In this document: positions 8,750 to 50,000 of the stretch, piece by piece | How positions within the stretch are numbered: the stretch's first letter is position 1 | Layout of the letters: every line of letters starts with the position of its first letter | Source of the DNA: Scatophagus argus | Lineage: Eukaryota; Chordata; Actinopteri; Scatophagidae | Length of the DNA stretch: 64,000 bases | Direction of reading: 5' to 3' | Assembly: GCF_020382885.2 (NCBI RefSeq) | Contig: NC_058513.1 | Location: 18,439,641-18,503,640 of the forward strand | The notes under the pieces: generated by a model | What the model was told of the DNA's origin: nothing | What the model saw: the letters and a program-made list of their open reading frames with translations, nothing else | The model's database searches: none | Program-made: the position numbers and the translations under genes

Positions 8750-9595
8750 ACATAAAAAGAGGAAAATACAAATTGAGACTTATTTATTGTCATCATAATT
8801 GCTCCTTCAGTGATGATGTAGTTTGATATTGATCACTTACAGCATTTCATAAAAAGTAGGGTTAGCTCTGCAATATGACATGACATGAAGTGCAATTTGG
8901 TTACAACGTAAACAGCATCAAACACTTTCCATCTTTTAAAGTTTGAATGCAAGAGAGCTAACTTTTTTCCTTTATGTTAACTTAAATCTGTAAGTTAATG
9001 CTAAGCATGTAGCAGCAGTAAGTGCAGTCCTTCACCTGCTAACATACTGTACTTACTGTACGTGTGCCCTGTGTATGCACCCCGTCACTCCGAGGTCTTA
9101 TTAAACAGAGTGTAAACCTAAATGCTGCATGCAGTCGGTTATGTACTATTGGAGTACCTGCCACGTTTCTGTTTCTTTTGGTTTGTGATTTTTTGGTTAA
9201 GCCTTAATTACAAATATGCACAAGCTGAAACGACCTCGAAGTGAATTTAATTACGTGAAACTGACTGATATGCAGTGAATATGGGACTCTTGATTCAGCC
9301 TTGTTTCTGTTCTGAATTTTACAAATTTATTGGCCTTTTGTTGCGCAGTCTTTTCTACATTACAAGAGAAGTGAAATGCGGAACGTTGCGTCCTCGGCTA
9401 AAAAAAGCGTGTTTCGACCGTGGTCGCTTCAGTGTGGGACCAGTGGGACCGGTCGGTCACTAATGTCTGCGGCACCCGGTGTTTGAGTTGTGTGATGGAG
9501 TTTCGTTGACGGACAGTAACACTACGTGAATTTTGTATTCAGTGTGTTTGTCTACCAACGCAGTGATATCTATCGGGGGCGCTCACCCGAGCAAC
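8750..9595 (+). promoter_or_regulatory. nploc4: Intergenic gap and nploc4 promoter region
   Basis: Fewer than 850 bp separate the pde6g polyadenylation signal from the nploc4 start codon, and no gene lies in it; in particular no TSPAN10 exon. The G/C-richer stretch at about 9385-9480, with repeated GGGACCAG/GGGACCGG, probably belongs to the nploc4 promoter. No TATA box was seen. Confidence 0.45.
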
Positions 9596-20157: not shown

Positions 20158-20284
20158 AAACAAACAAAAAAACCAAAGAATTTCTGTTGCAGATGTTGAT
20201 GTCTTTGTTTGATGACTGTCTGCTTAGATTAAATCAGAAAGGTCCTGACTGATGACACGAGAGCTTCTCAGAAGTGAAGCCAAA

Positions 20285-20425
20285 ACATCTGGACGCCCCC
20301 TGGTGGCTGGCTGCAGTACAGAAACTCCTCCCCGTCCATGTTAGCAGATGGGACGCTGACACTCACAGTACACGTCACTCCACTTCCTCCCACTGACTTG
20401 TGTGGTGGGAGGAAGTGGAGCCCAG
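20285..20425. repeat. Interspersed repeat fragment with CTCF-like site and hairpin
   Basis: 'CCCCTGGTGGCTGGCTGCAG' (20297-20316) and 'CCATGTTAGCAGATGGGAC' (20336-20354) are strings I associate with a widespread fish repeat. On the minus strand 20292-20306 reads CCACCAGGGGGCGTC, 14 of 15 positions of the CTCF core consensus. Confidence 0.5.
20378..20420. repeat. Perfect 16-bp inverted repeat with 11-nt loop
   Basis: The left arm CTCCACTTCCTCCCAC (20378-20393) is the exact reverse complement of the right arm GTGGGAGGAAGTGGAG (20405-20420). It lies downstream of the distal nploc4 polyadenylation signal, inside or at the edge of a repeat. Confidence 0.9.
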
Positions 20426-20558
20426 TCGTCCATCTTTACATGTCAGTGGTTCAGATATTCAAATCATTTTGAGTTCTCATTTGTTGTACATTTATTTACA
20501 ATGAGCACGGACAACTTAAAAATTATAGAATTCTCTATTTTAGTTCTAACCACTGCTG

Positions 20559-20740
20559 GACTATATGACCAAAAGTATTTGGACACTTGTTTTAGAGCTG
20601 TTTTTCATTAACAATTCATAGTTTCATAGTATTCATAGTTTTCAAAAGGGGAAAACTTCAGTGGTATTTCAGACAAAAGTGTGTTTTGAGGAGTTTGGCG
20701 AGGGCCCTTCTCAACATGACAGTTACCACCTGTCCAATAT
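20559..20740. mobile_element. Tc1/mariner-like remnant, tentative
   Basis: 'TATATGACCAAAAGTATTTG' (20562-20581) resembles the 'TATATGGACAAAAGTATTGG' string common in fish Tc1-type elements. A later 'TTCTCAACATGACAG' resembles part of the transposase region. It is heavily decayed and has no open frame. Identification is from memory of the repeat type. Confidence 0.4.
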
Positions 20741-21172
20741 CAAATTTTTGAGGCTGATACTCATTGACATCTCCCTGGTTTTCGCCATCCCGTCCACTTC
20801 AGTCAAAATATGCTTAAGTGCAAGTGTCCATGTAGTTCAACATTGTTAACATCGTCTGCACTTCATATGCATTTTCATTTTCTTTGCTCGTTCTGTCTCG
20901 TTAAATGTTGGTTATAAACTGCCAGCTGGGAATTAAGGAAGACCTTGATGGAAAACAGCAACTGCAGGTCGGCCCTCGGCAGGGCTTGACTTTGAAGTGA
21001 AATCCTGATATATGATGCTCAGATGGGAGTGGGAGCTCGGGACCCTCCCTCCTCTGCACATGAAGACAGTTTTTGTCCTCACCACATTGCTTGACTGTCA
21101 CCGCAGGTACGTTTCCTACTTTAACTCTTGAGTTGGGGCTTTATACTTCATTTTGGGTGCAGTTCACAGCAA

Positions 21173-21178
<6 letters not shown>

Positions 21179-21206
<28 letters not shown>
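21179..21206 (+). repeat. (GT)14 microsatellite
   Basis: Fourteen uninterrupted GT units end 11 nt before a putative 3' splice site (AG at 21216-21217) and 13 nt before the start codon of the next gene. Confidence 0.95.
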
Positions 21207-21209
<3 letters not shown>

Positions 21210-21218
21210 AGGTTAAGG

Positions 21219-22722
21219 ATGTTACAGATGAAGCCTGCTGGAGTTCTGTTCATCTTATCAGTGACTCTGAGTGCTGCTCAGAAACTGAAAACAACCCCGA
21301 GAGCAGAGTGGGAGTACAGGAATGAAGGTGAGCAGTACAGTCAATACTTTTACCCTCTCTTGTACTAAAGAACTTAGAGTTTTGGGTACCTCACTTGTTG
21401 TGTTTCCTCAGCCACATTTCAGTGGGAAATATTCATTTCTCAGAACTTTTACTGATTTGCAGGTGAAATTTCTGGAGTAAATTTGTTGTTCTAACAGCAT
21501 TTCAGAGTGAGGCAGGTCCTAAACACACCTTAATGTACAATTTCAAGTTACTGGTATTTACTTGGGTATTACAACGTACTGCTACTTCGTAGTTCTACTC
21601 TATTACATTTATTTGATAACTGTGCAGATTCAGATGAATATTACAAAATATAATCAGTAAATTCTGATTTCATATGATGAATCATGTGAGAGTCACAAGC
21701 TGCCCAGCAGTTTGAACAGCACACAGGACTCGTAGCCTCCGCTGGCTAACAGGTTTATGTGGGTTTTACTTTTTAAACAAAGTGATTTTATCTTTACTTT
21801 TAAACTGAAATGTAACTTGTTCTTTATCTTGTTTCTCATTATTGTGTTGCATGTGAAAATGTTTCACTTTTGAACTAAATTCAGACCGGTTTTGTCCCAG
21901 ATGTCTTTGACCAGCAAATCATCAAATCTGACTGACTTACAGAGTAGATATTATTATTCAGTATAAACTCTGTATTGTTACTAATATCTTTTTAAAGTAC
22001 TTTTTTCCTTTTTGTTTTTCACTCCAGCGTTCCTTCTTTGCTTCTTTCTTTCTCCTCCTTTTCATCCCTCCATCTTCCCCCTTTCATTCCATATTGCGAC
22101 CTTGTTCCTCCACTGGAGATCCTTCAGTGTCCGTTAGCCGTTTGATTCATCACGTCCTTGTTGAGCTGCTGTGTTTTACTTGTCTGTAGCAGAGAGGGTG
22201 AACACCAGAGGCTGTGCAAACCTCACGCTGGTTTTAGACAACTGGAAATACGCCATCATGACGCAGGTCAAGGATCTGCTGCTGCATGACCACAGCACCG
22301 TGCTGCCGGACTACGGGAGGTGGGGACCTCCTGGGAGGTTTTATTGGTTTAATGAAGACTGTTTTCCTGTTTTCACATCATCATCATCATTGCTGATGTG
22401 CTGTTACTGAGAGGGGTAAATTGTCTTTGGTCTCAGGATCCAGCCGCTGTCAGACGCCCTGGGAGATCTCTACAAGGAGTTCAACGCCCTGAAGGAGCGC
22501 CTCGCTGAGCTCACGGCCAAGTTTGACGGAGTCGAGGCCTTCGTGGACAACATGCGATCAGGAAGGAAGCCTGTCCCGCTCCGAGGTGAACCCCGACCCC
22601 TGGGGTTGCTGCCAGGAGGGGAGACCGAGACCACGGCCACTGATCCTGGAGCTCGACAGCAAAGAAAGAGAAGCAGGATTGTAGTGCGGAGGATCAAGAA
22701 ACCTGCAGGTCCACAGGACTGA
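21219..22722 (+). CDS. Unrecognised small secreted coiled-coil protein
   Basis: I do not recognise this family. There are three coding exons, 21219-21327, 22190-22319 and 22437-22722, phases 1 and 2, giving 174 residues. The start may be at 21219 or at a second in-frame ATG at 21228. The N-terminus is a convincing signal peptide (MKPAGVLFILSVTLSAA, cleavage near residue 20). Residue 45 is the only cysteine and is followed at once by an N-glycosylation sequon NLT (47-49). Residues about 84-116 form an amphipathic helix with hydrophobic heptad spacing (L84, L88, L91, F95, L98, L102, L105, F109, V112), likely a coiled coil. The tail is Pro/Gly-rich and ends strongly basic (RQQRKRSRIVVRRIKK). The lone cysteine could give a disulfide dimer. 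A non-coding first exon ending CCGCAG/GTACGT (GT at 21107) is possible. Clean splice phases and the signal peptide argue for a real gene; its function is unknown. Confidence 0.75.
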
Positions 22723-22954
22723 AACATGGACTGGACGAACTGTGAGCCACAGCATCATATTCCTGTTTAAATCTTACTGTGGTCTCAACTGAGTTCAGTT
22801 CACGAATTGTTTTTCTGTCCATCACCACCTCCATGATTTACCAAAGTAGAAGCTGTTTGGAAGGCCTCTCATGCTGGGTAACTGCAGCCGTACCTGCAGA
22901 GCAGTCGACATGACAAGCAGTCTGAAAACAAGTGAGAACCAGTAGAATAATAAA
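22723..22954 (+). other. 3' UTR and polyadenylation signal of the secreted gene
   Basis: AATAAA at 22949-22954 lies 227 nt after the stop codon. A second AATAAA at 23383-23388 could be an alternative end. Confidence 0.5.
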
Positions 22955-23869
22955 TATTAAAATATGTCATCGTTGTGCTGAAGCTGACTGTAACTTTTCT
23001 CACTGGACTCCTTCTGCTCACCCGCATATCAGGAGAAACAGTGCACACCTTTGCCTGATCTCATGTACTCAACAGTATACAGCTATACTCTACTCTGCCA
23101 CTAGGTGGCTCCACACCATCAGGAAGATGTCGATCCTTATGTGTTTAGTTCATAGACGAGAAAATATGAATTGTGAAATTTGGGGTTTTGGGAGGCTGCT
23201 GTTATACTTAAGCTATAAAACTTTGATTATTCTTCTTAGTACCAGAGGCTGATATTTTATTTTAGAGTCAATGATATCAACACATCATCAGCTGATGATA
23301 TTACTGTGCATCCCTGCTGAACTAACATTAAAGTCCGGTCTGTTGCACATTGTGACGTTGACAATAACTGCCAGATTTAAACAATAAAACGCTGACATAC
23401 ACACATAATGCGCATGTGCTGAAACGGCCCGTGGGTCTCCTGTTCACCGGTTCACCTGGTTGCCTCCTCGCTGTTCAGTGTTGTTCTTACTGTTACAGAA
23501 AGTTACAGACTTTCTACACTCAGATTTTCAGTGAAATTCATATGCCAGGAAAAGAGACAAAACACACAATACACAAAGTCAAACATGAATTCGACTCGTA
23601 GCATTTTACCTTACGTACCTTTTGTTGATAACAGGCTAGTTTTATACTTTAAATTCAGTAACGCAGGACTTTTACTTGTGGTGGAGTATTTTCAGTGTGT
23701 TAATGTAGGACCTCAGCTTGTACTTTGGTAAGAGTAATTGTACTCAACACTGTTAAGAAACACACAATCACACCAAAGTGTTGTGATGAAACCCGCCTGA
23801 GAGCCGCTCTGAGTTTCCGTTCTGCACAAACTGAACAGGCTGAGTTTCTTGTTTGGTGAGACTCGGACA
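22955..23869. other. Intergenic region before rnf213, with CTCF-like site
   Basis: No supported gene. A forward CTCF-like core CCACTAGGTGGCTCC lies at 23098-23112 (14 of 15 consensus positions). Open frames such as 22932-23252 show no protein-like character. Confidence 0.4.
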
Positions 23870-23885
23870 GAAATGAAACTGAAAG
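23870..23885 (+). promoter_or_regulatory. rnf213: ISRE/IRF-like element of the rnf213 promoter
   Basis: GAAATGAAACTGAAAG contains GAAACTGAAA (23875-23884), an exact fit to the IRF/ISRE core GAAANNGAAA, preceded by a further GAAA one base upstream. An AGTTTCTT half-site in inverse orientation lies at 23843-23850. RNF213 is interferon-inducible in mammals, so the site fits the gene. Location relative to the true start site is inferred. Confidence 0.65.
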
Positions 23886-23929
23886 GACTTGCTGCGGCTT
23901 AGGGACAGTCGAGAAACGAGCTGCTAAAT

Positions 23930-24178
23930 CAAGACGTAGAAAACTTTTACGCCGTTTATTATCTGACCTGAACCGCCTTAAAGACGACTACTGAGCCGAG
24001 TGTGTTTGCCCACGTAGTTCAGATAGAAAGCCTGGAGCTCGTGTTGGGAGACAAGCGCCAGCTGTGGGGCGGCTGACGAACTGCCGGACGGTCCCTTACA
24101 GGAGGTCTCAGCAGGTCTCATCGGCACTGCGGTAGTTCTGATCTGACGGTCTGATCGCCTGAGCTCCCAGCTGAAAAG
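23930..24178 (+). other. rnf213: rnf213 non-coding first exon, probable
   Basis: A good donor CTGAAAAG/GTACGT lies at 24178/24179, with no suitable long reading frame before it. It would splice to an acceptor TTAACAG at 24507, after which the first in-frame ATG that joins the downstream coding exons is at 24578. The 5' boundary is a guess. Confidence 0.45.
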
Positions 24179-24577
24179 GTACGTAAACAAACCATAAAAC
24201 CTAAATGTTTCCGTTCAGTAGAGATCAGCACGGCTGAGCTGCACCGTCAGCCTGCCACCGTTTAAAGGATTTGAATTTCATTTTTACAGGATTTGTTTTG
24301 AACTCTTAAACTCGAACTTGAAGTGTTGTGAACAAGCAATTTTAAGACGTCTCACTGCACTCACTTTTGATTGTTTTCTGAAAGTTAATCGACAAAGTGA
24401 TTCCTGGGGCAGGATATTCTTATTATGTGCACAAATTCCCTCAGGAGGATGAAACCAGATGTGGCAGCATTTCTCACTTGTTTCCTGCCTTTAATCCAAC
24501 TTAACAGGACATCTCACACATGTGGGATGTGATTGTGTGGGACTTTTTATACTCAAAGACAGATAAGAGGGGGGCAG

Positions 24578-26092
24578 ATGGAGCAGGGAGCAGGAGGCCT
24601 CCACAGCCCCTCTGGGTCACAGGCGAGAAAGGAGGATGTTCCAACCAAAAGATCCTGCAAAGGAAATAAGGTAGACATATAATCGTGAGCGCAGATATCA
24701 GGGGTTTAATATAAAACCAGATATGTGATAAGGTCAATGTGTATTCCAGGACCGAGGACGAGCAGGTCTCAGCAGGAAAGCTCAAGACAGAGAGAGAAGG
24801 AAAAAGAGAAATAAAAGAAGAAAAAACAGCAGCTTAAATGTAAAAGGAGACGATAAAAGTGAAGAATCCAAGACAGAAGTTGTGGAGACTACAGGCACCC
24901 AAACTCAGGAGAGTGTGCCTGTAGAAACACGACCTGACACACATCCAGAAGTGGAAGACAAGTTGCAAACTGTGCAAAAAAGTGGAGACCTGCGACACAA
25001 AGATGCTAAAGTGGTGCAAGCTGGGACTCAAACATTAAAATGTAAAAGCAGAAACAAATTCACACAAACTCCGGTTGTTCGTCAGAGCAACCAGGAAACA
25101 CAGACGGACTTCCCTGTGCCAACACAAGACGGCACCAATGCTGCTGAGTCAGGGCTAAAACAAGGTGAGCACACACCTCACGACAACACTGTTCAGACTC
25201 GATCGAGGCCAAATGAAAAGCCAGACAGTCACCAAGCATCACCAGCCAAAGAGCAAAACCCTGAGAAAGACGCAAAGTCTGAGGAGGGGAATCCGCCTGC
25301 AGGACCGGCTGACCTAACCGAGTCCCAAGCTGAAAAAGGTGCCAAACCAAAGTCTTACGCCAAAGCTGTGTCTGAAGGGGGCAGCAGTGAGCAACAGGCC
25401 ACTAAGGAAGCCAAAGCAGCAGATAAAAGCCTGAAACCGTCCCAAAGCACGCGGTGAGAGTAAACTCCACATTGACAGCTACACCACATACTGTGGTTGA
25501 ACATGTGATCATAAACTTGTTTTTCTTTTTGTCTCCACAGCGATCGGAGCCCCATCAGACCTCCACCTGCTGCTCCCATGTTCACCTTTCACATCTATGC
25601 TGTGTTGGACAGAAAGTTCAGATTCAACGAAGTGCATGACACACTTGTGTTGTTCTGTGGAAATCAGTGTTTTCCCCTGAAAGTGACGTATTTTGTGTGA
25701 GTATAAATGTTTATAAGCTTTCATATACGGTACATTTCGCTGCAGTGACTCTGCACTTTGTCCTGAATCTGTACAAGAAAGGACTACAATCCCTTCAATG
25801 TGCTGAAGTACACATGTGAAACTATAAAAGTCATACCACTTTCCTCATATTTTCAGAGTTCAGTTATATTTTCAGCTTCAGTGAAAGTATCATCATCACA
25901 AACAACCATATTTTATGTTTAGTGGTCAAAAACAAGGTGGATATCTGGTAGAAGCCAACCTTCCCATTGCAGAAAGCCATCTGGAGGGAGGCGTCTTGTT
26001 GTTTTATCAGTACGGTGTAAAGCAACGACAGAAGCAGATCATAGAAGTTGCCAGAAGGTGTGTCCGAATTCCCCTGGACTCAAACATTAAAG
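24578..26092 (+). other. rnf213: RNF213 N-terminal region: disordered arm and CBM20-like domain
   Basis: The first four coding exons. Residues 1-75 are basic ([10 protein letters not shown] type, as in human RNF213). Residues 76-265 are hydrophilic and carry TQT motifs at 81-83, 124-126, 136-138 and 148-150 plus VQT at 179-181, then a Lys/Glu/Pro-rich stretch. From about residue 276 ([16 protein letters not shown]) to about 375 the sequence corresponds to the carbohydrate-binding CBM20-type module of RNF213. The zinc-ribbon-like start of the human protein (CPSC...CSQC) is absent here. The ATG at 24578 was chosen because it is the one that joins the next exon in frame with a proper donor. Confidence 0.75.
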
Positions 26093-29000
26093 GTGAGGCA
26101 AGCAAACCATTCAGGTTCAGCATGTCAGCGTGGTGCTGTGGGTTTGTGCCTCTGACAGACTGATTATGTGTGTTTCTTCTAGAGCTGCACCTTTACGAAG
26201 GCTTCATCGCTCGTCAGGAGAGTCAGGGCTTTTTCCAAAGTGGCCTTCACTTGATTGGCTGGAGCAGATCAAAAGGTGTAGAGCTATCAGAAGCCTGGCA
26301 GGCCTCAGCGAGACTGCTGCTGAGCAGAATCTTCCAGAAATGGTCGCCATCAGACAAACAGAGCACGCAGAGCTTGCGTGACAACTTGAAGCATTTCGTG
26401 ACGAGTGTCGGCCCAGCACATGCAAGGGTGATATTCCCAGACGACTCAAGACCTCCCGTGGTCACGGTTGGTGCAACAAAAAGAGCAGAATTCAGAGCAT
26501 TCGCGATGTGTCACATTATTCTGACAGTAACAACATGTGCTTTTTATCTGCAGACATCAGAGCTCATTTCAGAGAATTTAGTTTGCATCTTAAAAGGAGA
26601 GCCAAAGGAGAAATTCCCCGGCAGTTTGAGGAGCACCAGTCCTCTTCTTCTGGGCCTGTCTGTTTTCGTGGTGACCAGATGGTATAACATCAACCTCGGA
26701 GTGAAAAGCTGGGCTGAGCTGTGTCTCCTGGTGTCCTCAGAGACTGCAATGGACAAGAAGAACCTGGACGGGTTGCACAGTGTTTTCGAGCATTCGCAGC
26801 AGTGAGTTCAGCGAAAACCTCAAGGTTCTCTTTGTGGGTTTTCCAAAAGCTTTCAACTGCATTTCATGGTCTTCCTCAGGGATCACATGACCTACGTAGA
26901 GAGCCATCAGATGTGTTAGCCTGTACAGTCCCTCATAGTGGTGATAGTTGGGTGTAGTTAGCTGCTGATGTGCTACATTTTAGTTAATAACACAACACAG
27001 CACACTGAAAGTTGCTGAGTAGTAGAAGTTTTTATAGCCGAGACAGGAGTATTCGTCTGAGGTACTGATGTATGTGTGTTTCCTCCTGCCAGTGTCGTGC
27101 TGGCTCTGATAAACCTCTGTGTGCGGCAGAAGGTGTCGGAGCTCGTCCTGCTCCTTCCTCTTCTCTTCAGACTCAGACAACCAGGAGCTCACGCCACCAA
27201 AGTGGGTCCAGCTGTGGAGGAGGAGAACTGGTCCGGACTTGAAAATGTCCATTTCTGCAGCTTCAGGGAGAATATTCAGCACCACCCTGACAAAAGGAAG
27301 TGAGTTTGTCTCAAAGCAACCTTGTTCTCCTCACACGGTGACCAAATTTAACATTTTCCTTCTTCACAGGATAATGTTGACTTTGATCGAGAGTCGCTTG
27401 TCCATGGCTGAAGAGAAGCCACTGCTCTTGATGAGCTGGTTGTCTCTGGTTGCATTTGAGGATCTTCCTGAATTTTCAGGCCTGACAGGAATACCTGCAG
27501 AACACCTGATCCAGAGTCTGTTATACAGACTGCAAAGATGTGGAGAGGAACGGGACAACAACAGAGCACAGGAGAACGTGAAGGTGGAAAAAATCTACTA
27601 ATGGCAATATTTAACATTTGAAATTACCCTTTGTGATCATCTTTATCTTTCTGCATGCAGCATACCCAGAAAACCTTGACCCATATACTGCTGAAGGTCG
27701 CCAAAGACAGGGACAGGTGAGGACATCTGAAATAAGATCCACTGATGAGCTGTGGTGTTCTGCTTCCTGTAACTTTTGCTTTGCATCTGTAGAATGATTG
27801 GATCTGGAAACACCAAGTCAGCCCTCATGAGCAGCATCAGTGTGGCGAGGAAGACGTGTGCGATTGTGCGACTCGTCCCAGACTACCAGGCCGCAGTCCT
27901 GTCCTACCAGCTGGTGGTGACCATGACAGAGATTTTGCTTGCTAAACTGAAGGAAGAGGTAATGATTTGCTGATTATGTGCTCTGACTGCCTCGTTACGG
28001 AACAGTAACTTTAATTCACTGTATTCCTTTTTCTGGTTTTCAGTCTTCAGGAGACGAGTATGAGACCTTGAAGAAAAACGTCTTGGATGAGTTTCAGGAC
28101 GTGCAGCAGCGAATCAGTGAGTGGAGAGATAAACTGCTGCACAAACCCATTGTGACAGCATCAAAATCACTCACCTACCCAAAGGAAATTGAGGTACACA
28201 CTTCAGCAGAATATTTACCACAAGCTTATGTCAGCTTATTATTCAGTTCCCTCTCTTGTGTTGTTCAGCTCGAGCAATGAAAGACGAAGGTAAACAAGGT
28301 GTTACATGTTATAATGCCTCGTAAACTGATATCTGATGTGAATTCCCAGCTGTGGGATGCCCTGCTGAAGGTGGAGTGCTCGCTTGAAGAAGTTTCATCC
28401 TGCTGGAGGATGAGCCTGAGAAAAGACCTGATGAAGAGGATTTCCCAGGTTAGTGGATTCTTATTGGTCAGTGTAAAACGGACGTGATTCGTCTAGTGTT
28501 AGAGACAGCAGATACATGCTTTTCACCTGGTTTCTTTGCAGGCAAGTGAGGAGGACAGAATTGCGGTCTGCTGCCTTGAGACATCATTGGCAGCTATAAG
28601 GAGGAGCCATGATGTGGTGCAGACCTGTTTTGATGAGCTGTGTCAGGCTGCTGTCAAGACAATCTGCCAGGTGTGTTCTGTGACCAGAGGAACTTCTGTC
28701 TTCATTCTCTACAGCTGCTGCCAGGATGGGAATCTACTTTGGTTTACATTTTTGTATCACACCTTGACTGATGAACTTCTTTTGTGATACTGTGTTGATT
28801 CTCCAAAAATATGGTGACTGATGATGTGTTCATGTTTTCAGAGAGGGCTGGAGGGAGACCTGATGCGGAGTCTCAGCTCGAGGGTGAAGGACCTCCCTGA
28901 TGTTGTCACGTCTGCTGTTGTGGTCGCGTCAGCTGCGCGATTCAGAGACGACCCTGTAGCCCAGCTGCTCGACCCACAGTCTGCCATGAACCACCTCCTG

Positions 29001-32000: not shown

Positions 32001-35000
32001 AACTGCTGCAAAAGCTGGCTCAGTCTATGGATACCTGCAAAAATGAATGGTATTCCCTCATCAGTGGGATGCGCGCTAACTTCAGCCTGCTGAACCACTA
32101 CACCTCAGAGCAGATGGTATACCTGTGTCACTGGATTCACAAAGTGTGTCAGCGACAGGCATCAGTTCCTCCACAGATGTGGCATTTACTTTTTCCCATA
32201 AAGCCTCAGTGCACTCTAACTGATGTCAGAGATGCTTACGCTAAGGCAGCAAGAATGACCTCAATGCACGACTTGGACGATGCTGAGTCTGGCAATGAAG
32301 ATTGTGAATCACCAGATTCATCAGGACACACTGAGGTGGACATGGAAGAAGTTCATGATTTGATGCAGTTTTCTTCAGAGGATGAAGATGATGAGGTCAT
32401 GAAATGTGATTTTGTGGGCATCAGGAAGCACGATGAGGACAATCTTGAAAACCTCTGGCGTAAATTCAAGGAGGACATGCCCCAGTACCTCAGTGAGTCC
32501 TTGGACATTTCGTCTTTGGCACACTTCCTTTCATGTCTCTCTGAAATGAACCAGCAACACGTAATAAGGAACCTTCCACCGCTTTTCCAGGAGGGAAAGC
32601 CCAATCTTGTTCTTTGTCACAATGAAGAAGTTTTTACCACCATCCTGTCACTTTACATGCAGAGTCCAGAGCAGCCTCTGCCATCTACTGATGAGGTTCT
32701 AGTCTGCAGAGAGGAAACCACAGAAGAGGAGGTGGAGATCTTTCTCCGCCGAGCTCTTGGCCAAGGCTCTGGAAGAAACTGGCAGAAGATTTACTCTCTT
32801 GTCAATCCAGGACTGCTGGGGTATGATGTTAGTGTGGCCTTGGAGGAGCTCTTTAAAGATCTTGAGAGAAGTGCTAACCCGCATTATCGTTTCATAATAG
32901 TCAGTCCAGTTGTGCATCAGCACAGATATGTGCCGTCTTTCTTCAGCAACAACAAAGTACAGGCTGGCGTTAGGCTAACAGAAAAGACTGCCAAGAAATA
33001 TCTACATCACCACTTCACACAGAACATGCTGTCACAAAACCCTGCCACACTGGTTTCTCCAGATCGCCTCTCAGTCTGGATGGTGTCATCTGTACGCCCT
33101 GCAGTTGGTAAGTCCTGTGGCAAGAAGAGGGTTTCTTTGTTATGTGAAAACTGTGTTGTGTTTTGTGTGTATGCAATTATAGAAAATCACATCAGCATTT
33201 TACACACAGAGGCTTCCAGTTACAATATTTAAATTAATTGATACAATATTTTTCTTTACATACATCTCTTTTTGACAATAGGAAAATCCCTTTATGTGGA
33301 TCGATTGTTCGAGAAGTTCCAGCAGAAATCTCCCAGAGCAGAACACATTAGGATCAGACTGATTGAGCCATGTACTGATATAGACTCTTTGATAAAGGGT
33401 TTGTCAGAGAAACTGGCTCCCTTGCGAGAGCAGGACCCTGTTCTTCTACACATTGACACTGCTGGAGTAAGTATGCAAGCGTTTATCTGTGCAAACAACT
33501 TGTTTTGTTGTTCAATGTACTTAAGAGTCTGTCTTCTTTTTCACTTTTATCACATGCCAGGTTCGTTCAGGTCTGGAGGAGCTCCTGTTCCATCTGTTAA
33601 TCCTGGGCTGTCTGAGTGACAGTCATGGCATGCTGTGGAGAAGGAATGTAGCTCAACTGATCACTGTTGAGGTCCTAAGAACATACACATCTCCTCAAAA
33701 CCAGCCAAAGCAGGTAGCAATGTGTTTTCTACATTCTGACTTATTTTTGAATGTGCATGTTGACTGTCAGAAAATGACATATTGCTAGATGTATTTTCAC
33801 TTATTAAACAGACTCACAACTTATAACTTTTTACCTCAGTGAAGTCACAGATTTGGATAACAGCATATTCTCATCTTTTCTGTATCTTACCTGTCAGCCC
33901 TTTAAGTGGAAGAAGTCTGCCAGAAGTGCAGTGTACGTTAGTGAGCATGCATTTGTAATAAAAACTGTTGACAAATGACAAATCAAACACAAACAGAAGG
34001 ACAGTCATTGAAAACCATAAAAAGCCTCTATTTTCCATAGTCTGTACTCACCAGGTTGTATAAACTTGGGATTGCATTGGTTGACTCAATTAAATTCTTT
34101 AACTTTTCCTGAATTTTCAAGCACTGCTTAAATCATTAAAACAGTTTATGCATTTGGTCTATAATCTTGACGAGCTTTAAAAGCTTTGCATTAAGTGATT
34201 GTACACCTTTTTGAATGTTAAGAGAACTTACAAAAATGACATCAGGCTGCAGCTGAATTAATTACTTTAATTTGCTCATACAGGTGAGACTTGGTCTTCT
34301 TGATATCCTACCTACCATCCATTGCAGACCTCCAAAAGACGTGAAGCAGATGTTGGCCGGGAGAGGGGTGTTGACAAAATTTGATCCTCTCATGGACGAA
34401 CAGGAGTTTTGCAGTGAGGGGATTCAAAGGCCATATCAGTACTTGAAGCTCTACAGCATGAATCAGAATTTGGATCATTTTAAGTACCAGGAAGGATCCA
34501 GAATGGGGGATCCCAGTGATTGTATCTATCACTTTCTGTCATACTGTGGAATGCAAGATCCATCTTGGGCAGAGTTGAAGAATTTCTCCTGGTTCCTTAA
34601 TGTGCAGCTGAGAGACTGTGAGAACTCAATTTTCTGTGATCCAGATTTCCTGGCTGACCACCTGCCTGGTTTCAAGGGTTTCATTGTGAAGTTCATGATT
34701 CTAATGGCAAGAGATTTTGCCTCACCATCTCTGAACACATCTGATGAAAGTCCCATGCGACACACTGACAGCAGTCAAGAGGATGATCTTCTAGCCCGTC
34801 TAACTATTCGGAAGCATTGGGAAAATGAGTCCCATCCATACATTTTCTTTAATGCAGACCGATCCTCGATGTCTTTCCTTGGCTTCAATGTGAAGATGTG
34901 TAAGAGGCAAAACACGCTCAATGCAGTTGATCCTCAGAGCCTCAAGGTCCTGATAGAAGATGTGATGTCAGAAAAACTTTTTCAAGGTCTGGAACGGCAA

Positions 35001-38000
35001 CAGATCTCACTCACTGAAGACTTTGACATGTTGCCCCGGCCAGACAAAATCAAAAGGATTTCATGCATTGTTGGTGCAAAGAAAGGAATGAGGGACAGAG
35101 AATTTGATCCAGACCCGACATATGAGCTCACTGCTGACAATGTGACGAAGATGTTGGCCATACACATGAGATTCCGGTGTGGAATTCCAGTTGTCATCAT
35201 GGGAGAGACTGGCTGTGGAAAAACCAGACTGGTCCGTTTCCTTTGTACTCTGCAGAGGGAGGAAAATCCAGCAGAGAACATGGTACTTGTCAAGGTACAT
35301 GGTGGAACTACAGCAGAGATGATCTACAGAAAGGTGAGGGAGGCAGAGATACTTGCTGAGAAGAACCAAAGGATGCACAAACTGGACACTATTTTGTTCT
35401 TTGATGAAGCCAACACCACAGAGGCCATTTTTGCCATCAAGGAAATCCTGTGTGACCAGTCAGTGAAAGGTAAACCTCTGAAGGCAGGCAGTGGCTTGAA
35501 AATAATAGCTGCTTGCAATCCTTACAGGAAGCACTCACCTGAAATGGTGGAGCGTTTGGAACGTGCGGGTTTAGGATACAGGGTGAAGGCAGATCAAACA
35601 CAAGACCGCCTTGGCAAAGTCCCTCTGAGGCAGCTGGTGTACAGAGTCCATCCTCTACCTCCAAGCATGGCTTCTTTGGTGTGGGATTTTGGTCAATTGA
35701 GTGATTCAACTGAGCTTTCTTACATCAAACAAATTGTCCAGAAGAAAGTTCAGGACCATCATTTGCCAGTGGACTGCAAGAGCATAATTTCACAGGTGTT
35801 GGGAGCCTCCCAAAAATACATGCGCAGTCGGAAAAATGAGTGCAGTTTTGTGAGTCTCAGAGATGTGGAGAGGTCTATGAAAGTGCTAGTTTGGTTTTAC
35901 CAGCATAGCGAGGTTCTTTTCAACAACTGCTCTCAGCTCACCGATGTTCATAAAACACTGAAGTGTCTGATTCTTTCTGTTGGAGTCTGCTACTCTGCAT
36001 CTCTGGTGGACAAAGAAGAGTACCTCACTGTGATTTGTAGGTACTTTCCAGGCTATCTCAGCTCTTCAGCAGCATTGCAAGAAGAGATTTCATCCTGTCA
36101 AGACTTCTTCCTTCAGAATATACACACAAGGGAGACAATTGCCAAAAATATTGCGCTCAAAGAGAACGTGTTTCTCATGGTGGTTTGCATTGAGCTCAGG
36201 ATCCCACTCTTTCTGGTTGGCAAGCCAGGCAGCTCCAAGTCTCTTGCTAAAACAGTGGTTGCTGATGCCATGCAGGGCCAGAACTCCCACTGTGGACTAT
36301 TCAAGAGACTCAAGCAAGTTCATATGGTGTCCTTCCAGTGCAGTCCTCATTCAAGTCCTGAAGGCATTATAGGGACATTCAGGAACTGTGCCCGCTTCCA
36401 GAAGGATAAAAACATGGATGAGTATGTATCAGTGGTGGTCCTTGATGAAATAGGTCTAGCAGAAGATTCTCCTCAGATGCCCCTGAAAACCCTACATCCT
36501 CTCTTGGAGGATGGTTGTATTGACAATGATAAGCCAGATCCACACATGAAGGTTGGCTTTGTGGGCATTTCCAACTGGGCTCTTGATCCGGCAAAAATGA
36601 ACAGAGGAATATTTGTCTCAAGATGGGATCCAAGTGAAGATGAACTTGTGGAAACTGCCAAGGGAATTTGTTCATCGTCCAACCAAATTCTTCTGAAAAT
36701 CAAACACCTCTTCCCATCTTTGGCAAAGGCCTTCTTGAGCATCTGTAAAGAGACCTCAAAAAATCAGTTCTTTGGTCTAAGGGATTATTATAGCCTGGTC
36801 AAAATGCTCTTTGCCACTGTCAAATCCACACAACAAGAACCCAGTGGCAGACAGTTGGTAGAGGCTATCTTGCGTAACTTCAGTGGACAGCCGGAGGGTT
36901 TTGACCCTGTCCTATTTTTCCAAGAGGTTCTCCAAAACATCATGGAAATTCCCAGACCAAGCACCTTGCAAATGGTGAAAAAGAATCTTGATCATGACAG
37001 CAGCCAGGAGAGTCGCTACCTCCTTTTGCTCACCACCAATAATGCAGCTCTCCATATTCTTCAGCAACAGATTTTTGCCAAAGGAGACTCTCGACCACCT
37101 GAAATCGTCTTTGGCTCTGGATTCCCAAAAGACCAGGAATATGCCCAAATCTGCCGTAATGTTAACCGGGTAAAAACTTGCATGGAAACCGGACGTACTG
37201 TCATCCTCCTCAACATGCAAAATCTTTATGAAAGCCTGTACGATGCTTTGAACCAGTACTATGTGTACCTCAGTATGCAGCAGTATGTCGATCTTGGTCT
37301 CGGCTCCCACAGAGTCAAATGTCGTGTCCATACAAACTTCAGGCTGGTGGTAGTGGAAGACCAGAAGAAGGTCTATGAGCACTTTCCTGTGCCACTCATC
37401 AACAGACTTGAAAAACACAGAGTGGATAGGGGTACTGATCTGAAACCATGGCAGCACAGGGTTCTTGACCAGCTGAAAGAGTGGATCAAAGAATTCTCAG
37501 GTGAGGCCTCAGAGGATTTCAAGCTGTCGGATGTTTTTATTGGCTACCACGGTGATGCCTGTGCCAGTGCTCTTTTGCAAGCACTAGAAAGGAGAGCACG
37601 AAAGGCTGGAGACAGTGCAGAAGAACAGAATCAACAGACTGAAAGAAATGACTCACTGGAAGAAGATGAACCAAATGAAACACAACAGAAAAAGATAACT
37701 GATAGAGAGTATGATCAGTTGGGTGACGCAGTGGACATTGAGACTGCTGGAGAAGAGCAAGAAATTCTGTCAGTCGAAAAGAGTGATAATGAGTCGACTG
37801 AGATGTGTAATGATGAGAAGAAAATAGTGTTGGAAAGGGTAGACATGATGGAGACAGAAAACCACGTTGAGTCTGCTGGAGAAAACGAGGAAGAAGAAGT
37901 CTTCAATTTAGCTAAAGGTCTCTTGCTGAATTGTGCCACCCCTGATGCCGTGCTCAGGCTCAAGTATTCACATTTAGCAAACCAGGAAAAGGAGAAGCTC

Positions 38001-41000
38001 CAAAGAATGTACTTCCAGCAACAGCATCACCATTCCCTACGAGATTTCCTGGAAGATTGCCTGAACAAACATCACGGTTCCAGCACGTTTCTAGAAGTAA
38101 GCCATAAGCCTTTGCTCTGACTTTGTTTTAATCATTTCTTTGCAATCTTTACAAATTGTTGTCATCCCCAATCCCTTTTGTGGTTTTGCACAGATAACTA
38201 CATTCTCCAGCTTGTTAACCAGATCAGATGTCAGAGTTGTAGCCCATGCCCTTGGACTCCATATGGACAGGATCCTCCTGCTCTCGCTCCACCAGTTTGA
38301 CACTGAAGTCTCCTTCTGCAACAAAATACGGTACTAACTGTTCCGATAACAGCAGCGTGGTTTGTTTGTTATATTTTGTCTTTTAATCTTTCACTTACTT
38401 GCCTCTCTGTGTCAGGGGCTTCCTTCAAGATGCTGGCCACTCTCTTCACATCCTGTTAATCCAGATGGACCTTGAGGAATCCCACTGCAGTGATGAGCTT
38501 ATAGCATCAGCAAAGTAAGGTTCAATGTAAAGATCCTGAAGAGACTGTAATGTGATTTTAAGCGTGCTCAGTGGAAAAAGGGACATTGCAATTCAGATGT
38601 CTTTGTGCTCCTGTCTGTTTCCAGATATTGCACAATGAATTACTTGATGTCACTGGAGGATCCGAACTGTTGTGTAATATTCATTGTGAAGGTTTCTAGG
38701 ATCCCAAGTCAATCTCAGTACATCGGTTTCCAAGGAGGTGAGTAGTGATATCAATTTTTGAAATCCAGTTATTTGCTGACTGAATTGCATGTGATGTATT
38801 GCAATATTAAAGCCATGTTTTGTTTTTTTGCATCCAAGGAGTCTGGCACTCAGTGCATATTGATGACCTGAGGGATTCAGAGGACATGAGTCTGAACCTG
38901 TTGGGTTTCTGTGGAACCCTCATTAGCAGCCTTCTCAACCCTGCACTGTCAGGTAGAAAAGCCCAGAATCTTCTGGGCTTTAAAAAGTGTGTTGTGTTAC
39001 AAATTAGAAAGTGGTTTCATTGTTCTCTTGGGTAATTTTTACATGTAAAATAAGCAAAATTATTGATCTTTAATAGAACACAATGAAGAAGGCGAAACAG
39101 TGAGGGAGAGAAAAGACTTCCAGGTAGATGCAAATGTGAATTTACAAGTAAAGAAACCATTGTACCTTTGTATGTGTTATTTCCTAGTTTTTAATGTTAA
39201 TTATATTTAGCATACTTGTGTACATACAGGCAGACAGAGCCCAGCTCCACACCCTGTCCTTAGTGAGATCATGCATCCAAAAAGCTGTGGGTTTGCTCAG
39301 GGACACCAACGGCGTGATGTCACGAAGCATGCAGCGTATACACATCCTTCTGAGTCTTCTCCAAACTGGTCAAGGGCATATAGGAGGTAAAATTTTACAT
39401 TTATTCACATTGAGGAGAATGTATTTGTTGGGGTGCCACAGGGTTTGCCGATCAATATCAATCACCTTCTTTATTAAGTATGATGTTATTCTTTTTGTCT
39501 GTATGAAGCCAACATCAGATTCTGATGCAGGAAATAAAATGAAATGCAGTACATTTTTCAGTGAAATACATTTTCAGTCTTGTTACATGTCTGACTGGTT
39601 TCTGATAAATGTGAATTAAATTCTTTATTCAAGCTCGCTTTCAAGAGGTGTTGTTAAGCAGACTGGCAGAGGCTTTGGCGCTGAAAGAAGAAATGATGGG
39701 CTCTCCTAAGGAGTGGGTGAGCAGAGAAGCCAAGAAACGCCAGGCTCTGCAGGAGGGGGGCACTCTGAGGTAAAGTTACTAAGCAGAAAAAGTTGAAACT
39801 GTTCAAATAAATTCTTTGAAACATTAGGAAATTGGACAAGGAACAAGTTTGAATTTGCCTCTAGTTTTAGATTTTAAAATTTTACAGAATAGATTTTCGT
39901 TCAGAACCAGATCCAGATCCTCTTTAAACTGTTTTAAAATATTTGTCACAGTTTAAGTGTGGCTTTCTTTTGTGTCTTTAATGGACAGACGCACCCTATG
40001 GCGCTGTCTTCAGTCCACTGTGACTCCAACCTTGGCCAACATGTTGGAAGTTATGGACAGGTATGCAAATCTGGACCTGCTGTCTGATGGCAGGCTCAGC
40101 CAGGGTCTGGGAAAGCTGTGGTTGGACATCCTGGAAGATTCACAGATTTTAAACCTAACACCTCTCCAAAGGCCAAGGTATTGTGGACTGTTTCTTCTGT
40201 ATGATACCCACAGTCAGTTCAGTCAACAAAGGGCATCATCTTTCTTTATTATAATTTCTAGTGAGTCAGACCAGGAGGTGCTTGTGCAGCACTACTTCAT
40301 GTTGGATGGTGAAGAGCAACCGTGTGTTGCTGCGTTCAGCTGGCTCATCAGGATGCACCTTGAAAGCCTATGGGAAGAATCAGAATTTATACCAGGTTTG
40401 TTCTTAATTAGTTTTTTTTTAATGACTCCATATATGAACACGTGGAGGGATCATTAAGTGTGTATCTTACAATATAGTATATAGTTTCAGATAGTTTATA
40501 GTTTTTTTATTGTTATTATTCTAACTGATCCTCAGTAACAAGAGCAGATGGCACAGAGAGGATTCTCCAGTTTGTGAGCACTTTCAACAACAGCAGACTG
40601 GGAAGTCACTTGCAGACGCTTTCAGCCGAGGACAGGCTGGAGTATGGCCACCACTTCCTACAAGACTTTCTGCTGCTTTCTTTGAAGATCAAGTCAAAGG
40701 ACGAGCTTAGGGTACAGACGCTACAATACCACACGTTTTAAACATATTTTGGGAAAAACCAGTAAGTCTCAGCTTTTAACACGTGTCATATGCAGGTGTT
40801 TACCCGGGCCATGCTGGGCTGTGTGTCTGAGCTCCAGACGTTAATGGGTGCTGTCGCTGAGCTCTCTCCTGCTTGGGTCATGGCTGCTGCAAAACATTTT
40901 GCCCCCAGACTGGACACTCTGTGTCACATATTCCTGCTGCAGCCCCAGCTAGCCACTGATGTCCTTCAGCAGGGGTCAAAGAGGGAGCACCAAGAAATGG

Positions 41001-44000
41001 TGAGGACAGCATTTTGGTTCCATTTAAAACTTTATTTTCATTACCTTTCTGTCAGAAAGGCTTTCCTAGAACTTTTGCTTTTAGTTTCTCACTTGATTTA
41101 CACTGTTCTTTATTTGTGACACTGTTTTTGCACTGCTTTATTTTAATTCTTCCATTGATTTTACATTTTATGTTTTTTTTTTAACAGTTTTAATCATCCA
41201 TTGTTTTAGGGTTTATTCCTTTTTTACTCCTTATGCCAGGCTGTTCTATTCAAACATTGGCATGGTTTTTATTTGTGTTTGTCGTAAGCCTGGTTTTGGT
41301 AAGTGCAAGGTTTATTATAATTATGTCACTCTTTGCTGTATTGGTGATAGTGACACTAGAGATAATGTAGAATGCTAACATGCTAAACTTTACATGCCAT
41401 GCAACATGCTATAGTTGTTAGACAGCTAACTATGATCATGCTAACTTGGTAGGAGTTTACTGTGATGTCTCTTTTTTGGGGCAGGTGGAGGACATTTTAG
41501 CTCTTGGTATCTGCACCGAGCAGACCAAACTATTGACTGTGACATCCCTGCAAGAGTGCGAGTCCTTTGTGAGCAGAGTGCAGTTTCTCCAGCCATGTCT
41601 GGACAGAGCGTTTGGTCAGAAGTACAGTGCCCTCTGTAGCCCCAGCTGTCTGCAACATCTGGACTCCATCAGGTGAGTCTGGAGAGATGTGAGTAAAAAA
41701 GCTTGTTTGTGTGTGTTTCAAGGTTTATTTATAATCAATTTGCCGTTTCAGGTCTTTGTGGCATGGGATGCTGATTGTAGCATCTTTCATCCAGCACATC
41801 GTTTTTAAAGTTAAACAGAATGATTCAAAATTGAGCGAAGTGGCCCTCAGACACTGCAACCTCCACCTGAATGTAAGTAAAATAGTCTTAAGGTTTGTGA
41901 CTTCGCTGAGGTGATAAGCCTCTCGGATCATGCCTGAAAAGTAAAATTGTTGGGAGATGGATGGAAAAAAAGCAGTTTTGTCCTCATTTTCTAACAGCTG
42001 ATGCAGGAGTCACCAGATCTGAGGAGTGTGGACACACTGAAGCTGCTGATCCGGATCCTCAATTCTCTTCACGATGAGTGTATCAGCAGGGATCTGAGGT
42101 CAGGTCAATTTGTATTCTGCCTTTCAGTTCCAAGGGACATCCTGACCTATTCCAATAAGCTTTAGTTTGAATAGTACATCAGGAAGAAGAAGAAACATTT
42201 CCAATTCAGTACAAGACTCAACCAAGTGTGATGTGATGTGCGATGTTTCTCTTACAGTGCAGTAATTGTAATCTCTCATGATATTTTGTTCTGTAAAGGT
42301 TTGGCATTTCTTGCCCAATCTGCCTTATGGAGTTCAGAGAGCCGTCCATCCTGCCCTGCCATCACGTCTTCTGCTTGCCGTGTCTCCAGCTCTGCATTCA
42401 GCCCCACAGACATTCCTGCCCTAAATGCAGGGCAGACCTGCCACCCGACTTCAAGCCGACTTTTTCTCACACAATCAAGTGAGTTCAGAAAAATCCCTCA
42501 TCGAAATTACAGCTCTGTTTAGCAAGGTGATAAATAATCGGTCGACAGGTAGCAATAGAGAAATGATTGGCCTTTGTGACTTAATTAACACTAAACCTTG
42601 TGGCTGTACCAGGTTAGAGCATGTAGTCAGTGCCAGTGGTTGCTTAAGCCAGAGAAAGGATGCAGGTCTTACCTGAACCCTGTGAAGCTGGACTAGATCC
42701 ATTGCTGTGAGCTCTGTGGTTGGAGCTGTCAGAGTGTCCTCTTCTGTCACCTTTCAGGCTCTTATGGCTCGCAGCTCTGCATTGGTTTCAGTTTATATAA
42801 ATTAGCGTCTAAGCACAGAAACAAAGTACTGAGTAAACTGAGGAGTCTGGTGGCCTGATGCTGTTGTCTGATAAGCCATCCTCTCAATAAAGTTTTTGTT
42901 GTCTTGGTTCAGGGCAGCACTTGAGCAGCAGGCAGCGATCAGGGACTGCTGTAACTCCTTCTTCCTGGAGGTGGTGTCCAGGTTCTGTCTGTCAGAGGGG
43001 CAGAGACCCGGAGATGAAGTGGTGGAGCTCCTATTCTCCTTACTTGTCTCTGCTAATGGTCAGTGACCCAATAAGTCAGTGATAATAACTGGAAAACTGA
43101 AACAAAAATGAAGGATTCACCTCTTTTATTTGACGTGGATTGTTTTGTGTGATGCAGGAGATGTATACAGGACCAGAGAACTCACTCCCTTCATGGAGTG
43201 TGTGGATAACAGTCCAGTGGTGCGATCGGTGCTGCCGAAACTGCTGCTGCAGCACAGGTGAGCGTGTGAATCCAGTGAGCACAGGAAGGAAAGTAAGTCA
43301 CTCACAGTGTTGTCAAAAGCATCCAGACAGAAGAGACGTCACTGTTACCAATTCAGAAGAAAGCCGCATCCTGGTGTGGATGAGCTCATAGCCTTTGTGC
43401 ATCAGGAGCAAACGCTGGACGGATGCCGCTGGTTACGGCGAGTTCCCTCAGAGTCCTGATGCTTATGCTAATAGTTGTGGGCTAATATCACAAGCATTTT
43501 GTTGCTAAATGTGGTAGCAGAGTTTAATTTGATAAGTTCATCCTCGATGGAAATGATAAAAGGCAAGCGGCAGCAGTTTAAACTGTTGAACAGCTTCATC
43601 CACCAGGCTGTCAGGATGCTAAACTCTGTCCACTGCCTCCCCCTCTGCCTCCGGACTGGAGCACATCCATTTACACAAGGACTTTGCCTTAGCTGTTTTG
43701 CACATAAAGACTCGTTCACTGTGTGTGACTGTATTTCCACTACTGCGTTATTGTACATAGGTTGGACTTTTATATTGTTATTTATTTATATTTTTATACT
43801 GCTATATTTTTATCCTTTTCTCTTTTTTTATTTAATTGCATGGCATTAGTACTAAGGTGAGAGAGAAAGTTTCGATTCTCCTGTATGTCCTGTAGTGAAT
43901 TGACAATAAAAATCTGTGAATCTTTGGATCTTTGATATTGGGAAAGTATTTTTTCTCTCCTTAAGCTTTATTTTTTTAACCTGCAGTGGCCATGATAGGC

Positions 44001-47000: not shown

Positions 47001-50000
47001 CGGCTTATCTCCTTCTTAAAGGGGCACTCCACCAGTTTTACAAATGAGATTTCTTCTGTGGTGTCATATTGATATCATTGGGATTATCTCAGGTTGACCT
47101 TGGAGACATTTTTAGAAATGTTTAACTGCATAAACAGGATAAAAATTAGGAAGATGTTGATTATGTACATAAAAATTACATAAAATTATATTATAGAATT
47201 ACAAAAGTTAAAATTACAAATTCATATTTTCTTCCATTTTCCTACAAGGACTCCTTCCTGCCCACCATGCCTGATGATCACACGACTGAAGCCAGTCAGT
47301 GGATGCGTAGAGAGGGGAACGCACAGCTGTACTGTAAGTATTTTGCATGATATCATCAACACTTCTGTACAAGCAGACCATCAGGATTTATATAATATCT
47401 TTATTTATCATTCACAGATTGTGCCAACGGTCATGCATGCTTTGTGGGAATGGTACGAGCTTTTATTGTGTTCCTCTTACCATTCATTAAGCAAAGTGAA
47501 ATTCAATAAATAATGCATTATCTGCTTCTGTATTGCCCCATAGTGTGGTAAACCGATGGTTATATCAAAGTGTGTAGACTGTGGACTTCCCATTGGTGGA
47601 CAAAATCATTCCCCAATCCCTGGATTTACTAAACACACAGGACAAAGGTATTCGTCTCTTCAGTCGTCCAATTTTGTGACAGAATTTTCAGTCAAATATT
47701 TGTGTTAAATTTGTGTTCCTCCTCATGTGTTTAAAGCGTCAGAGATCAAACTCGGACGGGACACGTATTAGGGAAGGCTCATCGGAGGTCTGAAGCCCCT
47801 GAGAGACAGATGACTTACGCTCAGTCGTGCATCCTGCGGTTGTTGACGCACCTCGCCATGCTTCAGGGCGCCATAACAAATCAAAGAGTGAGACTTCAGT
47901 TAGATTTGCACCAGATTTGACATGTCACAGGAACTATGTGATAATACTGTGGTGTTTTCTGTTGTAGGGAGTTGGTGACATGATCCAGCCGAGGCCCTGT
48001 GATGTTTTCAACTTCCTGTGGAGCCATCTTGAAAAAGACTTGCGCGTATTGGGGCAGACACTGGATCAGAACATGGACAACACGGCGGTTACACTTCATT
48101 TGATTCTCCATACCTGCACAGGATTCACTACAGGTGATACAGCCTTTCCTACAATTTTCAGCTGTTTCTATTGGCCCTTTCACACATGCAGTCTGTCGCT
48201 GAAATGTACAGGAACGTTTCCTGCACGTTGTCCTGTGTGAATGGTAGCAGGGAAGTCGTAACATCTGCTCAGACAGAAATGATCCTGAATGTAGCTGCAT
48301 GTGTACAAAATGAAAATCACTAGTGGTACCTGAGAGGTTCTCCTCAGTAATTTATCAGGAACCGCATGTTGAGATGTGCCATATCTGTGCTGAATGTTAT
48401 CAAAGGGTCCCGCGGCGCAGGACCGGATCTGTCCTCCAGACGAGGACGGCAAGAGTGGGAGAAGCTCTTCTGTGACTCTGCCATCAACCCAGTACTTCAA
48501 GTAGGGAATACAGTGTTTTTAAAAGCAGTGAATTCATTGATGTAACTGCAATCAATACTAGATACATTTTCATAAGGAAGACACAAAGACCTTTTGTGCT
48601 ACAGGATGATAAGTCTTTGTCCCTCCTGCTTGTTTTTAGGATTTGCAGAAGAATTTGGCTGAAGCTCAGGACAAAATCGGTGAGGACGAAGGACTTGCCG
48701 GAAGCCCCCTGATGAAACTCCTGTTTGGGGATCCTGCAGACATGTTGTCCCTCCCCTCTGAGTGCCCAACACATCGCTCCTCTTTCTGGACTCTACCCGA
48801 GACGATGACAGTGGAGCGCTTCTCTCAGCTGGTGGGAGAACCACAGGGACGCAGCTCCTTACGTCTGCTCATCACGTTCCTCCAGAAGGTACCAATCTTC
48901 ATCAGTGACATGAGATAATCAGACGGGTGTGCGCTTGTTCCGTGACTTCCCAAACTCAGGTCTCGTGTTAATGCATGTAACATGTTAGTTGCGGTCCTGA
49001 CATCGGTGACATATTCCATCCATCCATCCATCCATCCATTTTCTATATCGCTTATCCGTCAGGGTCGGGGGGGGGGGCTGGAGCCTCTCCCAGCTGACTA
49101 CGGGCGAGAGGTGGGGTTCAGCCAAACTCCAGTTCAGAGTGCTTGACATGTACTGACTCTGTTTGTGTGTGCTGGCCTCAGATTCACTGTGTGCGGCAGC
49201 TGCATCACCTGCCTGAGCTGGCTGCTCTGCAGTCAGACCTGCTGAGGGTGTTTCCTCTGACAGCACACTCGTCACCGCAGAGCATTGCTCAGCTGTTACA
49301 GCAGATACCCACAGGTGCATCAACATTTCATTCTGAAGTCAACCACAATGAAAGCGTGAACACACGCACTGACACAGACAGGCCTTTCTTATTGTCCGTG
49401 TTAGGATACCAGAAGAAGATGCTGCTTGAAAGAGTGGAAAGATTCATCAAGGTGTGGAACAGCCTCAGAGCAGAGGTGGCAAACAACTGTAAGCAAGTTC
49501 ACATTATCGTGCGCACTTATTTATTAACACAGTGTTAATTGATTGGTATTGAATCAAATCAGACTGAAATGAGAAAGAATAATAATCATAATAATCATTC
49601 TTGGACTGAACCACATTCAGTGGATTTGGTGTGAAGCCAGAGCTGTGATTAGTTACTTCCTTCACTGCAGGACTTCATGTACTTTCTCCCGTGCCTGTTT
49701 GTACATTTAGCAGCAGACTTGGGTGTGGATGTGAACTTGTGTGAGAAGGAGGTGACGACTGAGAGCTCTGGGGAGTTTCTGACACTGAGTCGACATGGTC
49801 CGGGATCATGTCTTCGGACTCTGGTCGACCTCCTGTTGAAGACTCACAACAGCCTGGTGAGAGAGGCAAGGAGAGTGAGCGGTGAAGACAGGTCAGTCCC
49901 CCGTGTCCAGAGTCAAGTACTCCACATCCAGAGTCAAATGCAAAGGCTCTTGGCTGTTAGCACTGAATGAAAACATGATTGTAGGTTTCATCAAGAAAAA

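Follow-up and report, generated by a model that had tools for sequence, protein, structure and literature searches.

In many of its clients LC8 works as a clamp rather than as an adaptor to a motor, and LC8 clients usually carry their sites in disordered tails of the kind found at the N-terminus of RNF213. Mammalian RNF213 contains a 'dynein-like core', a name unrelated to LC8 binding, and its self-association has been linked to the binding of ATP and, on lipid droplets, to ISG15. How RNF213 self-associates is unsettled: cells are reported to contain oligomers, which the purified protein did not show (PMC12075652, as excerpted). The N-terminal arm of mouse RNF213 opens with about 340 residues that are disordered by cryo-EM and continues as a long helical stalk (PMC7311170, PMC12075652).

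The rules for LC8 motifs excerpted from PMC6607443 favour a T-Q-T anchor with Pro, Asp or Glu at +2. Position −3 should be large or basic and position −4 polar, and bulky aromatics are disfavoured at −2. In the published table for fly ASCIZ, six of seven peptides bind LC8 at 7–20 µM and binding of the seventh was undetected; weakly binding sites include Tyr at −2 and Arg at +2, and multi-site constructs bind at 1–4 µM, that is, weak sites cooperate in arrays (PMC5963919). ASCIZ linkers of 3 residues go off-register at high LC8, linkers of 6 and 9 residues are homogeneous, and those of 30 and 41 residues are heterogeneous (PMC10046861, as excerpted).

We analysed a stretch of 64,000 nucleotides from contig NC_058513.1 of the fish Scatophagus argus (the window), in which the first exons of an RNF213 relative encode four TQT tripeptides and one VQT. 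The TQT array is a real feature and is non-random for its exon. Whether the disordered N-terminal tail of this diverged paralogue harbours a small group of recognition motifs for LC8 (DYNLL) is, in our judgement, evenly balanced. In a literature search judged from titles and abstracts, we found no report joining RNF213 with LC8, DYNLL1 or dynein light chain.

A diverged RNF213 paralogue

The open frame of the AAA core matches the solved chains of human and mouse RNF213, and a RING pattern lies downstream of it (Table 1). A one-frame pattern for the RZ finger gave no match; by eye, matching pieces are split over two neighbouring frames, and we take these pieces to resemble the RZ domain of RNF213.

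Table 1. Positions in the window of the RNF213 relative, its N-terminal motifs and its neighbours
Feature	Position	Strand	Remarks
OXLD1-like gene	1140-1559		Pfam Oxidored-like; upstream of the RNF213 relative
Coding exon 1 (31 aa, MEQGAGG...)	24578..24670	+	ATG; GT donor; in frame with exon 2
Coding exon 2 (hydrophilic; basic patch, then T/Q-rich array)	24750..25453	+	AG acceptor; GT donor; 235 open codons
Lysine/arginine-rich patch	24795-24824 (residues 47-56)		Ahead of the disordered tail
TQT site 1, ETTG-TQT-Q	24897-24905 (residues 81-83)	+	Weak LC8-like; unremarkable flanks
TQT site 2, VQAG-TQT-L	25026-25034 (residues 124-126)	+	Weak; small residue at −3, hydrophobic at +2
TQT site 3, RNKF-TQT-P	25062-25070 (residues 136-138)	+	Good except for an aromatic (F) at −2
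TQT site 4, SNQE-TQT-D	25098-25106 (residues 148-150)	+	Good
VQT site 5, HDNT-VQT-R	25191-25199 (residues 179-181)	+	Intermediate; D at −4, R at +2
Next three model exons	25541-25696, 25923-26092, 26183-26466	+	In-frame splicing
AAA core, open frame of RNF213 relative	34257..38120	+	phmmer to solved human/mouse RNF213, 1425-1443 bits; Pfam AAA
RING finger (CPIC...CPKC)	42312..42428	+	Pattern in a single open frame
RZ-finger-like pieces (10 + 19 residues)	47420..47600	+	Two neighbouring open frames; by eye
Open frames, presumably CEP131	~54800-63400		Downstream of the RNF213 relative

At least two further RNF213 copies, here C16 and C6, are present in the same genome (570 Mb, 48 contigs). A genome search gave 59% (C16) and 57% (C6) identity to the window AAA frame; by BLASTP, C16 and C6 are 68% identical to each other and 57% and 55% identical, respectively, to the window copy. 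Against mammalian RNF213, C16 scores 1763–1776 bits and C6 1665–1681 bits, compared with 1425–1443 bits for the window copy. The lower identity and the lower scores make the window copy the most diverged of the three copies found. A zinc ribbon lies upstream in C16 and C6 (Zn_Ribbon_1, E 3.7e-8 and 1.4e-8), and by eye one is present at the N-terminus of human and mouse RNF213; the pattern CxxC(6-16)CxxC is absent from the three plus-strand frames of window positions 20000–24750. The first-pass annotation had called the gene simply RNF213. The AAA core and the RING pattern uphold the family assignment, but the gene is an additional, diverged copy, and the interval searched showed no zinc ribbon.

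Upstream of the C16 copy are two similar sets of open frames, immunoglobulin-like by eye (reverse-complement positions 3169–4244 and 8277–9415 of the joined stretch), with identical stretches in common, as if recently duplicated.

The window copy is flanked by the OXLD1-like gene and by the open frames that we presume to be CEP131. OXLD1 and CEP131 lie near RNF213 at human 17q25.3, so the locus looks syntenic with the human one even though this copy is the most diverged. Zebrafish RNF213 forms two clades, RNF213a and RNF213b; in salmon, five genes cluster with RNF213a and one RNF213b has 49–52% nucleotide identity to them, and Table 3 of the same source gives positive fold values for the six salmon genes following virus or interferon gamma (PMC12234341, as excerpted). 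Two closer copies and one distant copy, as found here, represent the same form of split, and the window copy may be of the RNF213b type.

A T/Q-rich N-terminal tail

The ATG at 24578 is likely the true start of the window copy, and a stop codon lies 16 codons before it in the unspliced upstream frame. The 235 open codons of exon 2, which have a chance of about 3e-5 at the exon's base composition, and in-frame splicing on both sides in the predicted gene model make it unlikely that this exon is untranslated in the frame used here. With the next three exons, the folded portion of the N-terminal arm begins.

By composition, residues 1–265 class as disordered by the charge-hydropathy boundary, and residues 75–185, which include two aromatics, have a charge-hydropathy value of −0.143; the initial description of a hydrophilic, disordered stretch is thus borne out. 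Residues 1–469 gave no phmmer match to the human and mouse RNF213 chains at E ≤ 10. Relatives among solved structures were at chance level for both the array exon and residues 1–469 (best E 0.51 and 0.44, respectively), and Pfam gave no match to the array exon at E ≤ 0.01. By eye, the lysine/arginine-rich patch has counterparts in human and mouse RNF213 and in C16, in surroundings that are not alignable.

Translation of the spliced exons 1 and 2 places TQT at residues 81, 124, 136 and 148 and VQT at residue 179, exactly as the first-pass annotation had numbered them. The five sites start 43, 12, 12 and 31 residues apart, confirming the two successive 12-residue intervals among TQTs 124, 136 and 148, and the linkers between the 8-residue motifs measure 35, 4, 4 and 23 residues. 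The accompanying statement that natural LC8 hubs have such spacing holds only roughly: the 4-residue linkers fall between the ASCIZ linkers of 3 residues (off-register) and of 6 or 9 residues (homogeneous) in the excerpted data. A DNA repeat or microsatellite origin was considered and rejected. Each of the four TQTs is encoded by a different codon triplet, and none lies within any tandem or direct repeat that we found, so they probably arose separately.

In composition shuffles, exon 2 reached at least four TQT once in 100,000 and at least five [TVI]Q[TV] seven times in 100,000; with the composition taken without the TQTs, none of 200,000 random sequences reached four. Across the six frames of the window (121,965 aa, 26 TQT in total), no other stop-to-stop frame holds two or more TQT. 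Two further counts are less impressive than the plain shuffle. If any tripeptide is allowed, as for a motif picked post hoc, four copies occur in 273 of 20,000 shuffles, and a first-order Markov null, whose TQ and QT pairs come from the very array under test, yields at least four TQT in 2,643 of 20,000. Random placement produces two equal successive gaps, of whatever length, 1.7% of the time, and the 12/12 spacing by itself therefore carries little weight.

The view taken in the first-pass annotation that human RNF213 lacks such an array proved right, as by eye neither the human (391 residues) nor the mouse (360 residues) N-terminus contains TQT. In C16, the corresponding hydrophilic exon (259-aa frame) lacks TQT and carries DQT, AQT, GQT and PQT instead; the zinc-ribbon frame of C16 has one VQT. 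Two TQT occur in the matching exon of C6 (484-aa frame), both from one duplicated motif (HTFATQTARK), a number within chance (1,327 of 20,000 shuffles). As far as could be tested, the array appears to be specific to one copy when the three copies found in this genome are compared with one another and with human and mouse RNF213. The C6 exon (about 8095190–8096640, minus strand) has an internal tandem duplication with a period of 203 residues, 187 of 203 being identical. Relatives sought, on the slim chance of stray fish DNA, in bacterial/archaeal and viral contig collections gave 20 and 13 pattern matches, respectively, none of which was confirmed.

These comparisons bring in the main rival explanation, drift in a fast-changing disordered tail. 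Here the TQTs would be coincidences of neutral change in a T/Q-rich sequence, would bind nothing in the cell and would be missing from orthologues, which we regard as possible if somewhat doubtful. The corresponding hydrophilic exon is wholly different among the three RNF213 copies and mammals and the flanks of the four TQTs are dissimilar, as drift predicts, and the equal spacing and the any-tripeptide count are modest enough to suit it. The shuffles that preserve composition, with or without the TQTs, argue against drift, as does the fact that TQT was known beforehand and was not picked from all tripeptides.

Possible LC8 binding and its alternatives

We scored the sites with a log-odds model built from 26 published binders and 28 non-binders; the model is small, is not LC8Pred and has a leave-one-out AUC of 0.75. 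From Tables 1 and 2 of PMC6607443 we took 16 of the 19 rows for binders, all 4 for weak binders and 28 of the 43 for non-binders. The binder rows dropped were two viral peptides and one duplicate. The non-binder rows dropped were one viral, one phage, one duplicate and one shifted peptide, together with 11 more dropped by choice for having no TQT-like anchor or too few preceding residues. Table 2 of PMC5963919 supplied six of seven ASCIZ rows, the TMT site being dropped.

Ranked against the 28 measured non-binders, site 136 lies above 100%, site 148 above 93% and site 179 above 89%, whereas sites 124 and 81 each lie above 21%. Judged by the published flank rules, site 148 fits, but site 136 breaks them with an aromatic Phe at −2 and site 124 with a hydrophobic residue at +2; Val at −5 and Gly at −2 of site 124 agree with the phage-selected consensus (PMC3078936, as excerpted). 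The earlier description of the anchors as being of the LC8 type is supported. In the small model, three of five sites (136, 148 and 179) are binder-like; sites 81 and 124 resemble non-binders, and two sites break the flank rules.

Among the TQT-anchored peptides that we used from the published tables, 15 of 32 bind, weak binders included; the fraction would rise slightly if the two dropped viral binders, both TQT-anchored, were counted. A TQT anchor alone is thus close to a coin toss. LC8 binding of the tail in vitro could go either way, and a biological role is less likely than binding in vitro, given that the array is not conserved in the paralogues and mammals compared. LC8-family genes are present in the genome, with seven exon matches to Pfam Dynein_light (PF01221) on four contigs. 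The array is a plausible candidate for a weak multivalent LC8 client.

If LC8 binds, residues 124, 136 and 148 with their 4-residue linkers would form a compact core accompanied by two outliers. Of the five sites, two or three (136, 148 and perhaps 179) would each fill one groove of an LC8 dimer with micromolar affinity, and neighbouring weak sites would help by avidity. With the two symmetrical grooves of its dimer, LC8 could staple two RNF213 tails side by side; its part here would be that of a dimerisation clamp rather than a connection to the dynein motor. LC8 binding, a paired enzyme as its result and an effect of pairing on activity or placement are all inferred.

Two other readings of the tail deserve mention. 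The tail may rely on short motifs of other kinds or simply be a charged, flexible spacer, with the TQTs riding along. The basic patch at residues 47–56 and the mixed acidic and basic stretch after it would suit such a role, and by eye the patch is common to the window copy, human, mouse and C16, which the TQT array is not; the spacer reading leaves the TQT excess unaccounted for, and we consider it decidedly unlikely. SQ/TQ cluster domains have at least three SQ/TQ per 100 residues, and a TQ cluster for ATM/ATR-type DNA-damage or stress kinases, in which TQ is the phosphorylation site and the next Thr incidental, agrees with this usual definition by its six TQ at residues 81–157 but is highly improbable, since there is no SQ in that interval and the excess of Thr after TQ (4 of 6 cases versus a base rate of 9.4%, binomial P 0.001) goes unexplained.

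The reading of the array as a cluster of LC8 motifs draws on the exact motifs and frame, their rarity in composition shuffles and their occurrence in the only frame of the window with at least two TQT. It is further favoured by the lack of a copied DNA unit, the Thr that follows four of six TQ and the disordered composition, and also by the scores of sites 136, 148 and 179, the disorder of the mouse N-terminus, the cooperativity published for ASCIZ and the LC8-family exons. The scores of sites 81 and 124, the departures from the flank rules, the small model and the 15 binders among 32 peptides weaken it, as do the absence of the array from both paralogues, human and mouse and the less striking Markov and any-tripeptide counts. 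In addition, a proteome has thousands of disordered exons, and a 1-in-100,000 event somewhere among them is unremarkable.

Significance and relation to known systems

In its boldest form, the argument would be that an LC8 docking ladder has replaced the zinc ribbon in one copy-specific RNF213 paralogue of fish, and that a general dimerisation hub of the cell thereby holds this giant antimicrobial AAA ubiquitin ligase constitutively in pairs or clusters. We think this unlikely; if true, it would constitute a new control of RNF213 self-association. A paralogue with a docking array for a dimer hub would offer a clean handle on whether enzyme pairing matters for antimicrobial activity. If LC8 does not bind, the tail is a useful example of TQT clusters arising in fast-evolving disordered tails.

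Among solved structures, the closest relatives are mouse (6TAX, 7OIK) and human (8S24) RNF213, whose AAA core is homologous to that of the window copy by sequence. Mouse RNF213 also shares a disordered N-terminus (about 340 residues in mouse) and the basic patch. In contrast to the window copy, the mammalian N-terminus begins with a zinc ribbon and, by eye, contains no TQT. Among LC8 clients, Bassoon and CIZ1 provide peptides with the same TQT anchor that bind LC8 (PMC6607443, PMC12057147); in the tables of these sources, their sites were measured by calorimetry, with one peptide each. CIZ1 has many predicted LC8 sites with varied linkers, most of which are predictions in the excerpted text (PMC12057147). 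ASCIZ/ATMIN has seven (fly) to 11 (human) verified sites with measured binding, whereas the four TQT and one VQT of the window copy are read from sequence alone. Like the tail of the window copy, however, the LC8-binding domain of ASCIZ/ATMIN is disordered, contains several TQT anchors that differ in strength, of which some have disfavoured flanks, and mixes long with short linkers (PMC5963919, PMC10046861, as excerpted).
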